A DNA stretch of 64,000 nucleotides, taken from NCBI GenBank assembly GCA_022566535.1, contig JADFIR010000001.1, forward strand, positions 1 through 64,000, written 5' to 3'. The notes beneath the pieces were generated by a model. It saw only the letters and a program-made list of their open reading frames with translations. It searched no databases and was not told the DNA's origin. Numbering within the stretch: the stretch's first letter is position 1; every line of letters starts with the position of its first letter. The translations under genes and the position numbers were made by a program. This document shows positions 58,277-64,000 of this stretch, one piece after another. This DNA is from Planctomycetota bacterium (lineage in GTDB: Bacteria > Planctomycetota > Phycisphaerae > Phycisphaerales > SM1A02).

Positions 58277-58541
58277 TGCAACACTCCCTGTTGATGGTAG
58301 GACTGAGTGGTGGAACCCGACGGCGACGGGTCGATGATGCGTGCTTGTGCGGGTACGGAGCTTCGGATTCCTCTTACAGCGATGCCCCGGCCGGCTCAGA
58401 AGAATCGTTGGGAATTCACAGGCAGCAGTTGCACAATATCGCGGCCAAGCACTCGACCAACAACGATTATCTTACAGAAACCAAACATTTGCGGAAGTGT
58501 GTACCTATTGAAAATATTTGTGCTTGGATGGCCATTTTGAC

Positions 58542-58578
58542 TTGACTTGGTCTTTTCACTAGGTATCATAATGCCTAG
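58542..58578 (+). promoter_or_regulatory. Candidate transposase promoter with overlapping palindrome
   Basis: TTGACT (58542-58547), 16-nt spacer, TATCAT (58564-58569); imperfect palindrome CTAGGTATCATAATGCCTAG (58559-58578). Confidence 0.45.
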
Positions 58579-58593
58579 ATTGGAGGTGGTCTG

Positions 58594-59571
58594 ATGGCCA
58601 AGAAAAAGCCCTGCAAGGTCGGGGAGAACAAGTCTCAGGTGGTGCGGGACATGCCCAATGTCTGCTCCGATGAGGATGCAGCCGTTCGTTTCATGGAGGC
58701 TCAGCGCTGGGGCGACGAGCCATGCTGTCCGCGCTGTGGCGATATGAACGTATATCAGGTGGGAGACCGCAAAACGGGCGGGCGGAACACAGATTACCGA
58801 TGGCGATGCCGGGCCTGCAAGCGGTACTTCACTGTGCGCACTGGCAGCGTCATGGCGGAAACGAGGATTCCGCTTCGGTACTGGTGCTATGCATTCTGGC
58901 AGGTATGCTCCTCGAAGAAAGGCGTCAGCGCCAAGCAGATTCATCGGCAAACGGGGTTGTCCTATAAGAGCGCGTTGTTCTTGCTCCATCGCATTCGATT
59001 CGCCCTCGCCGATATGGAGGGAGTGAAGCTGATGGGGACCGTCGAAGTGGACGAGTTATACCTTGGAGGTAGGCCCCGATACAGGATTCCGTACGATCCC
59101 TTGAAGCGACCGCACAGGCCAAAGCATCCGCGCAAGCAACCCATCATAGGAGTTCTTTCGAGAGATTCAGGAACCGTAAAGACGCGCGTCATCCCCGATG
59201 TCACCAGCCACACTCTGCGGCGCGCAGTGAGCGAATTGGTGGACAAGTCCGCGAAACTCGAAACGGATGAAGCGCCAGCTTACGTCGGAATTGGTCGTCA
59301 GTATGCTGGACACCAAGCTGTGAAACACAGCAACTATGAATATGTCAGAGAGGGTGTGACGACCAACACGATTGAGTCCTTCTTTGCAATCCTGCGCCGA
59401 GGCATCACCGGCATCTACCACAACGTCAGTCGCAAACACCTTCAGCGCTACCTTGATGAATTCGAGTTTCGCTATAACACGAGAGCGCTAGAGGATGGGG
59501 AGAGGACCGTAACCGCGATTCAGGGAGCAGTGGGCAAGCGACTACTGTACCGACAGCCGAATCCTGCATGA
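58594..59571 (+). CDS. IS1595 family transposase
   Basis: N-terminal zinc ribbon CCPRCG...CRACKRYFTVRTGSVM; DDE domain VEVDELYLGG, ETDEAPAY, TNTIESFFAILRRGITGIYHNVSRKHLQRYLDEFEFRYNTR. Confidence 0.93.
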   Translation: MAKKKPCKVGENKSQVVRDMPNVCSDEDAAVRFMEAQRWGDEPCCPRCGDMNVYQVGDRKTGGRNTDYRWRCRACKRYFTVRTGSVMAETRIPLRYWCYAFWQVCSSKKGVSAKQIHRQTGLSYKSALFLLHRIRFALADMEGVKLMGTVEVDELYLGGRPRYRIPYDPLKRPHRPKHPRKQPIIGVLSRDSGTVKTRVIPDVTSHTLRRAVSELVDKSAKLETDEAPAYVGIGRQYAGHQAVKHSNYEYVREGVTTNTIESFFAILRRGITGIYHNVSRKHLQRYLDEFEFRYNTRALEDGERTVTAIQGAVGKRLLYRQPNPA

Positions 59572-59632
59572 AGGGTGAGGACAGCTTCCATCCGCTACAA
59601 TGCCGTTGACCACGTGCTAAAGGACTCTAGCG

Positions 59633-59806
59633 ATGCCCGCAGCGGGCGGCGACAACAAGCGGAAGAAGCCCGGACCGAAGCCGAAAAGACTCAAGGCGGA
59701 AGGTGCTGATTGGGAAGAGGCGATCAAACACTCGCTGCGGAAATCAAAGCCAAAGGATGGCTGGCCGAAACGCCCCAAAGGGAAGGATGGCGAGCATGCC
59801 CGATAA
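59633..59806 (+). CDS. Small basic passenger protein (57 aa)
   Basis: MPAAGGDNKRKKPGPKPKRLKAEGADWEEAIKHSLRKSKPKDGWPKRPKGKDGEHAR; overlaps next ORF. Confidence 0.55.
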   Translation: MPAAGGDNKRKKPGPKPKRLKAEGADWEEAIKHSLRKSKPKDGWPKRPKGKDGEHAR

Positions 59807-60203
59807 CGGTCCACCTGCTGAGGAAAAAGCGCCCCCCACGGAAATAGCGTTTCACTATGAAAAGGGAAACTACTTTCGCGTCATCCACGTAGATGGCGGG
59901 CATGGAGGGCTTTCTCCAGACGGGCAGTCGCTCGTACTCTCGGTCTACACTGAGAGGCGACCAATCCCGAAGAAAGAGGTGTTTGACCTTGACGAGAACG
60001 GAGCGCTTATACAGCCTCCAAAGGATAAGGATGAGCGAACTGGCATCTTTCGAGAAGTGGAGGCGACACTCATAATGAACCCAACCACTGCAAGTGCGAT
60101 CAGGATTTGGCTCACTAAGTATCTGGACCAGCAAAAGGAAGCATCTGTAGAGATAGAAAAGACGAAAGCACGGATACGCAAAGCCAAAGAGGAAACAGAG
60201 TAG
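59796..60203 (+). CDS. Passenger hypothetical protein, distantly DUF3467-like
   Basis: MPDNGPPAEEKAPPTEIAFHYEKGNYFRVIHVDGG...REVEATLIMNPTTASAIRIWLTKYLDQ. Confidence 0.6.
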   Translation: MPDNGPPAEEKAPPTEIAFHYEKGNYFRVIHVDGGHGGLSPDGQSLVLSVYTERRPIPKKEVFDLDENGALIQPPKDKDERTGIFREVEATLIMNPTTASAIRIWLTKYLDQQKEASVEIEKTKARIRKAKEETE

Positions 60204-60692
60204 ATGGCCGACATATACTGCGATAATGCGCTACTCGGTGGTGCAACCGACGTTGATACGGCTGTTCACGGGACACTTGTCATCCAAGGGTCTGTTGTCC
60301 TTCTGAACAAACCCCAGCAATACCCGAGTAAGTTCGTCAAACAGTACAACATGATTGATATCCTAAATACGGCAACAAGCGGTATCCAGGAATTAGCAGA
60401 AAAGACCGAACAAACGTTCACCAGGCTTGCTGATGAATGGGAACACGACACCGCTGGATCATCGTTGATTCAGGACATGGTGGATCATCCCAAGTACAGA
60501 GAGATCATCGCGCTTGGGAGAGATGCCCTGCCTTTCATCCTTGAACGCCTAAGCGCACAAGGTGGATTCTGGTTTGGCGCGCTGCACGAGATTAGCAGAG
60601 AGTTCGCACCCTCAAAGGATGACCTTGGCAACCGCGAGAAGATGACAGCTGCGTGGTTGGAATGGGGGCGCGAGAATGACCTTTCGGGATGA
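60204..60692 (+). CDS. Passenger hypothetical protein (upstream partner of DUF7689-like gene)
   Basis: LIQDMVDHPKYREIIALGRDALPFILERLSAQGGFWFGALHEISRE...AAWLEWGRENDL; starts at the stop of the preceding ORF, overlaps the next. Confidence 0.65.
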   Translation: MADIYCDNALLGGATDVDTAVHGTLVIQGSVVLLNKPQQYPSKFVKQYNMIDILNTATSGIQELAEKTEQTFTRLADEWEHDTAGSSLIQDMVDHPKYREIIALGRDALPFILERLSAQGGFWFGALHEISREFAPSKDDLGNREKMTAAWLEWGRENDLSG

Positions 60693-61221
60693 AGGGGCAA
60701 TTCTTCGCCAATACCCGAGACTAAAGTCGTCTAGCTATTCTGGTCACAGTGATCCGGACGACTTCTACAATTGCATTGCATTTGCGGTTGGCGACAGGAA
60801 GCGTTGGTGGGAGCCATTCAGAAACTACCTCTACACTGGCGGGTTGCCCGTATGGCCCGAAGGATGCAGCGCCGCGAACACGCTGCCGGGGTGGATTGAG
60901 GCTTTTCACTCCCTGAGATTTGAGCGATGCGACGATGGCAACTTTGAGCGCGGCTTTGAGAGGATAGCAATATTCGGTCTCTCGGAATCAGAACCGAAGC
61001 ACGTTGCTTGGCAGCCATCCGATCGCAATGGGGATTGGTACAGCAAGCTTGGTAATGACGCCGACATTCGCCACGAAGACGTCTTGGCAGTCAGCGACGA
61101 GGACGGCAGCCAAGTTCTGGCCTACATGAAGCGGGACCGGCACCACCGATCTGACCAATCACTGCTGCGTTGCGCAAAACCACTAGAACCCCTCCCAACC
61201 CGTGTGCCCACTTTTCAATAG
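60676..61221 (+). CDS. DUF7689-like passenger protein
   Basis: DDFYNCIAFAVGDRKRWWEP...LPGWIEAFHSLRFERCDDGNFERGFERIAIFGLSESEPKHVAWQPSDRNGDWYSKLGNDADIRHEDV; 3' end runs into the right TIR. Confidence 0.65.
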   Translation: MTFRDEGAILRQYPRLKSSSYSGHSDPDDFYNCIAFAVGDRKRWWEPFRNYLYTGGLPVWPEGCSAANTLPGWIEAFHSLRFERCDDGNFERGFERIAIFGLSESEPKHVAWQPSDRNGDWYSKLGNDADIRHEDVLAVSDEDGSQVLAYMKRDRHHRSDQSLLRCAKPLEPLPTRVPTFQ

Positions 61222-61510
61222 GTACACACTTCCGAATATGTCTCCGACGACCCGACCTGCAGCCCAGGCGCCCCAAGAAGCCGGCGGGCGGGGCCCCGTG
61301 AATGGGGGTTGGGGGCTTGTAAGGGCGTCGCTCATATCGCACCGTCCGAGAAAATCCACGCAAACTTTCAGATTTGGTCTTGAATTGGACCAGCTCAAGT
61401 GGTACCTTCTGCTCACGGGAGGGAGGCGGAGCGCGCACGCGGCGTTCTCGCGTAGCGGGTTCATCAATACAATCCCCGGAAGCAGGGAGAGACCTCAGGA
61501 GGAAGAGGTC

Positions 61511-62386
61511 ATGCCTGCTCAATGGCGACGATTCGGCCGAAACCCTGCCGCCGCGGGTGCAGTAGCTGCGCTCTGCATTGCATCAATTGCATTGGGCGGC
61601 CCTACCGGGGATCCGTATTTGACGATGACATGGGATGCGTCCAACGATGGCGTCGGGGCCGAGGAGTACTCGTGGTACGAGCACGGCACCTTGAACCCGT
61701 TTGGCCTTTACACGATCGATCCGTTGATGATCGGCGATACGCAAAACCCCGGGAGCATGACCCCGATCCCGGGGAGCGGGGTTTCGGCCTTCGGGTGGAA
61801 CTACGCCGGTCAGTTGCAAAGCCAGGAGAACTTGTGGACGTATGAGTGGAACTGCATCTTCGATGACGGTACCGGTGCGGGGGCTGCCACCAGTGGACTT
61901 CCGTTTGTCACGGCGAACCTCGTCGTAACGAACAACGACCAAGTCAACTCCCAGACATTTACGCTTCTGATGACGCTCAACGTTCCCAGAGTGGTCGTGA
62001 ACCCACTGATGAATGGCTCGATCGTCGGGACCATTCTCGATCTGACCGGTGACGATGCGACCGTCAGCGCCCTTGGTGGCTCTTCAATTTACACGGCTCG
62101 TATTGATTTCGTTGACGAGCGTAGCTTGATGGTGGACCCCTTCTCTGCGAACGCCGGTGCCCCGTTCTTCAGCGGGCCGGTCGGGCCGGAAGATTTCGGG
62201 CTCCCCACGCCGGAGGTAGCCAGCCAGGATGTGAACACCAACATCCAGATTTTTCTGCAGTTCGAGCTTAGTCCGGGTGACTCGGCGTCGTTCATCTCGA
62301 TCTTTGAGATTGTGCCCAGTCCGGGCGGTTTGGCGGTTCTGGGGCTTGCCGGGTTGGCCGGTCGCCGACGCCGGCGTCGGGCCTGA
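61511..62386 (+). CDS. PEP-CTERM-like surface protein
   Basis: Signal peptide; tail PSPGGLAVLGLAGLAGRRRRRRA. Confidence 0.75.
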   Translation: MPAQWRRFGRNPAAAGAVAALCIASIALGGPTGDPYLTMTWDASNDGVGAEEYSWYEHGTLNPFGLYTIDPLMIGDTQNPGSMTPIPGSGVSAFGWNYAGQLQSQENLWTYEWNCIFDDGTGAGAATSGLPFVTANLVVTNNDQVNSQTFTLLMTLNVPRVVVNPLMNGSIVGTILDLTGDDATVSALGGSSIYTARIDFVDERSLMVDPFSANAGAPFFSGPVGPEDFGLPTPEVASQDVNTNIQIFLQFELSPGDSASFISIFEIVPSPGGLAVLGLAGLAGRRRRRRA

Positions 62387-62619
62387 GCCCTACCCGGCAT
62401 GGGCGGCGAGCATGAACGGCCAGTCGGCCCGTGATCCGCTGTTTCAAGCCGGTCTCTCCGTTGCCAATCAGGACGTGGCCAACGCGGGCGGATTCTGTGG
62501 TCGCTGCCATGTCCCGAATGCCTGCCTCAGCGCTGCTTCGGCTGAATCGGTTGCCCGACGGCTGCGTCGATGCGTTCGATCTGGCGGTGCCGCTGGCCAA
62601 CTGGACGGGCAGGCCATAG
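62382..62619 (+). pseudogene. Decayed multihaem cytochrome/dockerin gene fragment
   Basis: EPYPAWAASMNGQSARDPLFQAGLSVANQDVANAGGFCGRCHVP resembles EPYRTWSGSMMAQATRDPVFWAALTVANQDADFGGDLCLRCHTP of the 2381-4357 gene; then, in another frame, PDGCVDAFDLAVPLANW. Confidence 0.7.
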
Positions 62620-62929
62620 GCCGCCATCATGAGCATGCATGGGGCCCAATCGCGGTGCACAGACAGAGGGACAAGCCGTACGGCACCCAAACAGGAGCCG
62701 GGCCAGCCGCGAGCCGCCGAATGCTCGGATGAGATTCAGTCGCCCCGCGGCGCTGATTATTACCGAAATTTGATCAAAATGGTTGCATTGAGGTACGGCC
62801 CAGATTATAGTGCGAGTGGATAGTCGCCCCCCGGGAGGGGCGCGTCCGGGGTTTTGTCGCTTCGCTTGGGAGAGAGGCAGCCGTAGAAACAACTGGAGAG
62901 AGGGTATCCATGTACGGGAGGAAAAGGAT

Positions 62930-63709
62930 ATGTCCCTCTTTCGCAGGCGTGTTCGGGTGCTGGCGGTTGCTGGCGTTCTCGTTGCAGCGACCTCGATAGA
63001 GTTCCAATCCGCCTATGCCGGGACCATCCCGGCGCTGCAGATGGATCTCGAGTATGACGGCGCGACCCCTTTCCTGTGGAATCCGAATCCGTCCGGTGTT
63101 GATATCGGTAACGGATTGTTCAACTTCGTCGGCAGCTTCACCGACATTTTCGGTTACCTCACAGTTGAATGGAATCTCATCGTTAGTCCCAGCACCACCT
63201 TCGGGACAGCGCTGATCACCGGTAATTACACCGTTGAGAATCACACGGATTCCACGCATGATTTTGTGGTCGGGGTGACCTTGCCGGTCGCTCCGGCACC
63301 GGGGGCGCAGCTCATGGGAGGCGCACTGACGATCGCCCTGCAGGCCAACGGTGACGGCGGCGCCATCATGTCGATTCCGGACGACCCCGGGAACCCCAAC
63401 GGCCCCGGTTCGCCCGTATGGCAGGCGCAGATCGACGGCGTTTCCGTGCAAGACCTGTTTCAGCACCAATTCGAGCTCTCGATCACCGGTGCGGGCGGGA
63501 TTGCCACGAGCGGCAACTTTGGTACTCCGATCCCCAGCGCTCCTGCTCCCGCGGTACTCGGCTCGATCGGCATCAAGACCGCGTTCTCTCTGACGTCGCT
63601 GGACCAGGCGTCGATGACCAGCAGTTTTCAGGTTACTCCGGCTCCGGGCGGGCTGGCACTGCTGGCGATTGGTTTGCTGACTGGCCGAGGTCGGCGACGA
63701 CGCAAGTAA
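62930..63709 (+). CDS. PEP-CTERM-like surface protein
   Basis: Signal peptide; tail PAPGGLALLAIGLLTGRGRRRRK. Confidence 0.75.
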   Translation: MSLFRRRVRVLAVAGVLVAATSIEFQSAYAGTIPALQMDLEYDGATPFLWNPNPSGVDIGNGLFNFVGSFTDIFGYLTVEWNLIVSPSTTFGTALITGNYTVENHTDSTHDFVVGVTLPVAPAPGAQLMGGALTIALQANGDGGAIMSIPDDPGNPNGPGSPVWQAQIDGVSVQDLFQHQFELSITGAGGIATSGNFGTPIPSAPAPAVLGSIGIKTAFSLTSLDQASMTSSFQVTPAPGGLALLAIGLLTGRGRRRRK

Positions 63710-63907
63710 GCCGGGCCACCACAGCGCTCACACCACACGGCCGTTGCATCGTCTCGATCGCCTGATCGAGGCGCTTTTCGTTAGCCCGGGCGACTTTGCG
63801 CGGGGCCGCAGCTCGCCGACACTGCCCCGCCACACGCACAACCACCGCCACGCCAACGCAATTGCGATACGGGCGGTTCGCCCAGGTATCGCATCTGATA
63901 GTCAGAC

Positions 63908-64000
63908 CTACCAGGCCCCAAGCTCGCCGGTGATGGGCTCCACAAGATCCTTCAGCGTCAGCAGCCCGACCGGCTGGGTGCTGGACTGGTCAACGGCGAT
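63908..64000 (-). CDS. C-terminus of a CBS-domain protein, partial at window edge
   Basis: Reverse frame IAVDQSSTQPVGLLTLKDLVEPITGELGAW*. Confidence 0.55.
   Translation of the reverse strand: MAVDQSSTQPVGLLTLKDLVEPITGELGAW

Follow-up and report, generated by a model that had tools for sequence, protein, structure and literature searches.

The stretch of DNA analysed here (the window: all 64,000 nt at positions 1-64,000 of JADFIR010000001.1, from a Planctomycetota bacterium, to which all unprefixed coordinates refer) carries at 58492-61234 an IS1595-family transposon with passenger genes, and this anatomy is close to certain. The element spans 2,743 bp between two terminal inverted repeats (TIRs) of 23 bp, namely CGGAAGTGTGTACCTATTGAAAA on the plus strand at 58492-58514 and its counterpart on the minus strand at 61212-61234, which match at 23 of 23 positions. 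A chance pairing is ruled out by the absence of any other match in the window at up to three mismatches and by shuffled sequence, for which the expectation is zero. The repeat starts with CGG, which provides the GG near the tip that marks IS1595 elements, and its tip (CGGAAGT.TGTAC.T) is common to related elements bounded by perfect target site duplications (TSDs). The first gene inside the repeats (58594-59571, plus strand) encodes a DDE transposase of 325 aa, with an IS1595 catalytic domain (DDE_Tnp_IS1595, PF12762; E=2e-38, 132 bits, cut-off 27) and an N-terminal zinc ribbon (Zn_ribbon_IS1595, PF12760; E=1.3e-9, 38.3 bits, cut-off 25.4); it also matches the NCBIfam IS1595 model NF033547 (E=1.9e-53, 181.5 bits, cut-off 75). 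It is followed on the same strand by four genes: p57 (59633-59806), p3 (59796, ATG, to 60203, stop), p4 (60204-60692) and p5 (60676-61221). They are tightly coupled, p57 and p3 overlapping by 11 nt, p3 and p4 abutting, and p4 and p5 overlapping by 17 nt, and the right TIR provides the stop codon of p5 (TAG, 61219-61221). A preliminary description of the locus had proposed exact 23-bp TIRs around a transposase and four plus-strand genes, the last ending inside the right TIR, and each of these points was borne out. The element is present as a single copy in its own genome.

The same description counted all four non-transposase genes as cargo; this stands for p3, p4 and p5, which form one module, and fails for p57, a basic protein of 57 aa (KKPGPKPKRLK..DWEEAIKHSLRKSKPKDGWPK, its motif being written KKPGPKPKRLK..DWEEAI). 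Relatives were searched with the transposase and their copies delimited, which yielded related TIR-bounded elements of 1.7-4.4 kb. Homologues of p57 lie inside 18 of the 23 delimited IS1595 elements, including all those with a transposase at least 50% identical to that of the window, and both the location and orientation of p57 and the remaining genes differ from element to element. A profile of p57 matched 19 times in 151 related genomes, and 16 of these matches adjoin an IS1595 transposase or its remnant. Because p57 is present across the lineage while the cargo changes, and because its matches lie mostly beside such transposases, it is a conserved accessory gene of the transposon and not cargo. 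Judging from its basic sequence, the protein could bind DNA, and it probably acts either in that way or by aiding the transposase.

The real cargo is the three-gene operon p3-p4-p5, a module whose reality is close to certain, and within it p4 and p5 are an obligate, inseparable pair. The p4 protein (162 aa) has a variable N-terminus and a conserved, all-helical C-terminal core (HPxYxxII...WFxAL...WLEWG). The p5 protein (181 aa) belongs to DUF7689 (PF24738; E=1e-26, 94.4 bits, gathering cut-off 22.6), as had been supposed from the sequence; most of its homologues stop near window residue 155, and the last ~26 aa of the window protein are an extension into the TIR. A scan of one-per-species genomes with a p5 alignment, from which 80 of 252 confirmed loci were kept, placed p5 in cyanobacteria, Planctomycetota, Nitrospirae, Chloroflexi-type bacteria, Desulfobacterales, Spirochaetes and others, and p5 was also found on 12 viral contigs. 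At every one of the 92 loci fetched by p5 (80 genomic and 12 viral, which collapse to about 44 distinct loci at 62% identity), p4 lies immediately 5' of p5. The reciprocal search of 154 Planctomycetota genomes gave nine matches to p4, and all nine adjoin p5. The suspicion that the last two genes form a fixed pair is thus confirmed, and the proposed search of other genomes showed that they co-occur at 92 loci beyond this insertion. The occurrence of p5 is patchy (14 of 392 Planctomycetota genomes), and a tblastn search of plasmids with p3, p4 and p5 as queries gave no match. Both p4 and p5 are small, adjacent, translationally coupled and co-occurring, which is the gene architecture of type II toxin-antitoxin (TA) systems. 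No function is described for DUF7689, and no paper in the searched literature mentions it; as far as can be judged from that search, which was thin on subscription papers, the p4-p5 pairing and the exchangeable first genes described below appear not to have been reported.

The gene that precedes the pair is exchangeable. In the window it is p3 (135 aa), which had been labelled DUF3467-like; this identity is rejected, since a profile search returned no Pfam family for p3 at E<=1. The order p3-p4-p5 recurs in four places (the window, L044, L142 and L176), and because it occurs elsewhere without such a transposase, the window element contains genes unrelated to transposition inside its TIRs, as is characteristic of IS1595 elements with passenger genes (tIS). 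At 42 of 84 loci, the gene 5' of p4 lies on the same strand at a distance of 50 nt or less, and the first genes include TIGR04255 (24 loci), a family of 227 aa (six loci) and p3 (L142 and L176, which make four with the window and L044). The module ends at p5, because a tight downstream neighbour follows in only 5 of 85 loci. Homologues of p3 were found in 12 of 392 genomes; at four loci (L228, L229, L231 and L233), they lead operons that contain another conserved two-gene set. The two proteins of that set are of ~190 aa (with WNGYGSEAPN in some) and ~145 aa (with a [YA]xH[SAV]E motif). Similarly, among 30 TIGR04255 loci (L237-L266), p4-p5 comes next in only two, and many of the others precede unrelated genes; TIGR04255 overlaps the next gene by 4 nt in 12 cases in all, which suggests that it is a promiscuous operon partner. 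The small genes 3' of TIGR04255 at these loci are varied (XRE-HTH-like, PIN-like, WDGYG-type and others). Since p3 and TIGR04255 each head both p4-p5 and other operons, in which either often overlaps the following gene by 4 nt, first genes and downstream modules recombine combinatorially. The alternative partner pair of p3 was not picked up behind TIGR04255 with profiles of four sequences, which are too weak for this purpose. On viral contigs, no p3 was confirmed by a single-sequence scan, and an alignment scan returned only the contig already known. As for TIGR04255, no paper on it was found in the searched literature.

With regard to the likely chemistry of the pair, an alignment of 45 diverse p5 sequences contains seven invariant residues (N32, C33, H109, Q113, S123, K124 and H133), among which C33 and H109 provide the conserved cysteine and histidine expected of a papain-like enzyme. 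In the AlphaFold2 model of p5 (pLDDT 86.8), C33 begins a helix and H109 falls within a strand further along the chain, the order known from papain-like hydrolases of the NlpC/P60 type. Fold searches with p5 gave matches below significance (best PDB match E=0.21, a C39 peptidase; best BFVD match E=0.007), near the top of which C39, NlpC/P60 and CHAP entries recur. A profile search of p4 and p5 against the sequences of solved structures gave nothing meaningful. The balance tips slightly towards p5 being a papain-like cysteine hydrolase, as predicted from the model and the invariant residues. It resembles NlpC/P60, CHAP and other papain-like hydrolases in its invariant cysteine at a helix N-terminus, its later strand histidine and its weak fold matches, but differs from them in that it has no significant sequence or fold match and no signal peptide apparent from the sequence. 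In the p4 model (pLDDT 80.6), a disordered N-terminal part precedes a core that is all-helical and confidently predicted (helices 50-157).

Further indications come from the cargo of the sister elements. Three of them contain homologues of RmrA from RosmerTA, with E values down to 3e-70; these are HTH proteins with an IrrE/M78 domain in L082 and L194 (E=8e-65 and 2e-54, respectively) and a third in L080. Other elements carry DUF433 with PIN_10 (L075), DUF3800 (L081), SLFN_AlbA_2 with HATPase_c_4 (L088), GmrSD_N (L201) or a PDC-M24A/B pair (L094; E=9e-36 and 1e-51). The window's own genome has a second cargo-bearing IS1595 element (L089 4829-7734, G000:C27), bounded by a perfect TSD (TTGATTTT), in which a Beta_protein matching PD-Lambda-2_C (E=5.5e-58) lies beside a cll-like gene. 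Among 86 control proteins from the flanks, the commonest Pfam families are housekeeping ones (RecA, kinases, HSP70 and GidA). Counts of PADLOC matches were abandoned as a test of enrichment because flanking housekeeping genes match too.

The elements also appear to share a preference for a particular kind of insertion site. Perfect TSDs of 8-9 bp flank 22 related elements, nine of which were detected by making a TSD a requirement. In the window copy there is no TSD, the flanking octamers being AACATTTG on the left and AATATGTC on the right, where the flank is rearranged. Comparison with sister genomes G001 and G003 nevertheless identified the left octamer (58484-58491), which is part of a CCAAACATT box, as the target. 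The identical nucleotide site (window 58484-58491; L047 3574-6332; L213 about 7938) occurs in three states, namely occupied by the window element, empty in G003, and occupied in G001 by a different IS1595 element. The G001 occupant has a transposase 34% identical to that of the window, an adjoining DUF3800-like gene and a TSD, AACATTGG, in register with the left octamer of the window.

Seven IS1595 copies lie directly 5' of recA in seven genomes (G096, G064, G090, G034, G078, G030 and G027; loci L081, L077 (the same as L199 and L290), L087, L083, L084, L078 and L202), and several of these elements end ~20 bp before the block CC[GA]AACA..CTTGACA..CC[GA]AACATTG. The motif CC[GA]AACA occurs at 3.3 per kb within 120 bp of element ends compared with 0.32 per kb in the rest of the loci, an approximately tenfold difference. 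A search of the window's genome for a pattern of two boxes derived from this block gave a single occurrence, at the recA promoter. Read in the empty G003 site, the window target is a variant form of that block and, by its sequence, a recA-type promoter. Altogether, 7 of about 25 copies lie within 1.5 kb of recA, whereas ~0.01 would be expected; by this arithmetic the proximity is far beyond chance, although some of the insertions may share ancestry. An apparent preference of these transposons for recA-type promoters emerges.

Within this context, the best-supported reading, for which we find the case about evenly balanced, is that p3-p4-p5 is a defence module of the TA or abortive-infection type carried by an IS1595 transposon. 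The core of the transposon comprises the transposase and p57, with the translationally coupled p3-p4-p5 as a passenger. In such a module, the helical p4 would partner or inhibit p5, itself a cytosolic and probably papain-like cysteine hydrolase, and sensing or neutralisation would fall to the exchangeable first gene (p3 in the window, and TIGR04255 or others at other loci). A TA or defence role gains indirect support because the first genes are exchangeable and because sister elements carry known defence and TA genes; we infer a part in defence or stabilisation from these analogies. Several observations weigh against it. PADLOC gave no match to p3, p4 or p5 at E<=0.001 (one chance-level match to AbiEi had E=0.044), and since it also matches kinases and other genes in the flanks, raw defence counts are no proof of enrichment. 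The fold matches of p5 do not reach significance, the fold search with p4 gave none, and several cargo genes of the sister elements encode unknown membrane proteins. Moreover, many p4-p5 pairs, for example those of cyanobacteria, have no coupled first gene, so the pair could function on its own or in some other role.

The last point leads to the alternative that p4-p5 is a housekeeping or regulatory enzyme pair of hosts or phages (e.g., a cysteine hydrolase for modification or deconjugation, together with an adaptor) that was picked up by the transposon by chance and has no part in toxicity or defence. The very broad distribution, the frequent lack of a coupled first gene, most evident in cyanobacteria, the silence of PADLOC and the lack of an obvious nuclease or membrane toxin fold in p5 are all compatible with such a pair. 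However, patchy occurrence within Planctomycetota counts against it, as do exchangeable coupled first genes, presence on viral contigs and carriage by a transposon lineage with repeated defence or TA cargo; we regard this alternative as rather doubtful. It is also conceivable that p3-p4-p5 is an addiction module that stabilises the transposon rather than a phage defence. The genes are mobile, compact and coupled, DUF433+PIN and HTH/ImmA-IrrE modules are found in sister elements, and TA pairs of Tn3-family transposons, for which such a role has been suggested, set a precedent (PMC7157771), but the RmrA, PD-Lambda-2_C and PDC-M24 homologues in the sister elements belong to systems catalogued as anti-phage, which makes a role in addiction instead of defence unlikely. 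Addiction and phage defence can be compatible in one module. Finally, it is very improbable that all four genes serve transposition control, with p3-p4-p5 regulating or targeting the transposase, since the features in favour (one coupled run directly 3' of the transposase and the conservation of p57) hold for p57 only, whereas no other delimited element contains p3, p4 or p5, p4-p5 occurs at 92 other loci, and an IS1595 transposase of the window's kind was missing from all 17 planctomycete DUF7689 loci that were inspected.

A defence or TA module on an IS1595 element can be set beside several known systems. IS1595 elements with passenger genes, such as MTnSag1 and tISCpe8, are known (Siguier 2009, as cited in PMC5704250), and the window element agrees with them in its IS1595 DDE transposase, N-terminal zinc ribbon, TIRs, 8-bp TSDs (here in the relatives) and non-transposase genes. 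It differs from tISCpe8, for which lincomycin resistance is reported, in its lineage-conserved p57 and its defence- or TA-like cargo. Tn3-family transposons carry TA pairs, sited at res (PMC7157771), and Tn7-like transposons carry defence cargo (PMC8649781); the present lineage, which has likewise repeatedly gained different TA or defence modules, has an unrelated transposase and much smaller elements. RosmerTA (RmrT/RmrA), a phage defence system (PMC10440598) found in three of the sister elements, is similar in combining a conserved component with swapped partners but is unrelated in sequence to p3, p4 and p5. As regards DUF7689 itself, of which p5 is a member, the obligate p4 partner and the exchangeable first gene are additions of the present analysis.

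On a wider and more tentative view, which is possible without being the favoured expectation, p4-p5 might be one branch of a hitherto undescribed combinatorial operon network (with TIGR04255, p3 and others as first genes, and p4-p5 among its effector pairs) that serves TA or anti-phage functions through a papain-like cysteine hydrolase and is spread by IS1595 transposons homing to recA-type promoters. DUF7689, a Pfam family of unknown function, becomes a defined and testable unit: an inseparable pair that spans many phyla, can be headed by any of a few interchangeable first genes and has a catalytic cysteine by prediction. TIGR04255 and p3, which are unannotated families, emerge as promiscuous heads of numerous coupled operons, a pattern that earlier led to TA networks. 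In addition, a small and simple transposon family that seems to prefer recA-type promoters joins the vehicles for defence-type genes.

The right flank of the element (61235-63907) is not syntenic with the sister species G001 and G003; this 2.7-kb segment stands in place of ~690 bp present in the sister species, and synteny with G001 restarts at 63908 (G001:C76:7021). Because this flank is rearranged, the right TSD copy is missing, and the rearrangement next to the right end of the element probably deleted it. Within the segment, a stretch of ~50 bp (62552-62604) recurs dozens of times in this genome and its sister genomes; it may correspond to a C-terminal, dockerin-like GDxDGDGxVDxxDL motif in the encoded proteins.

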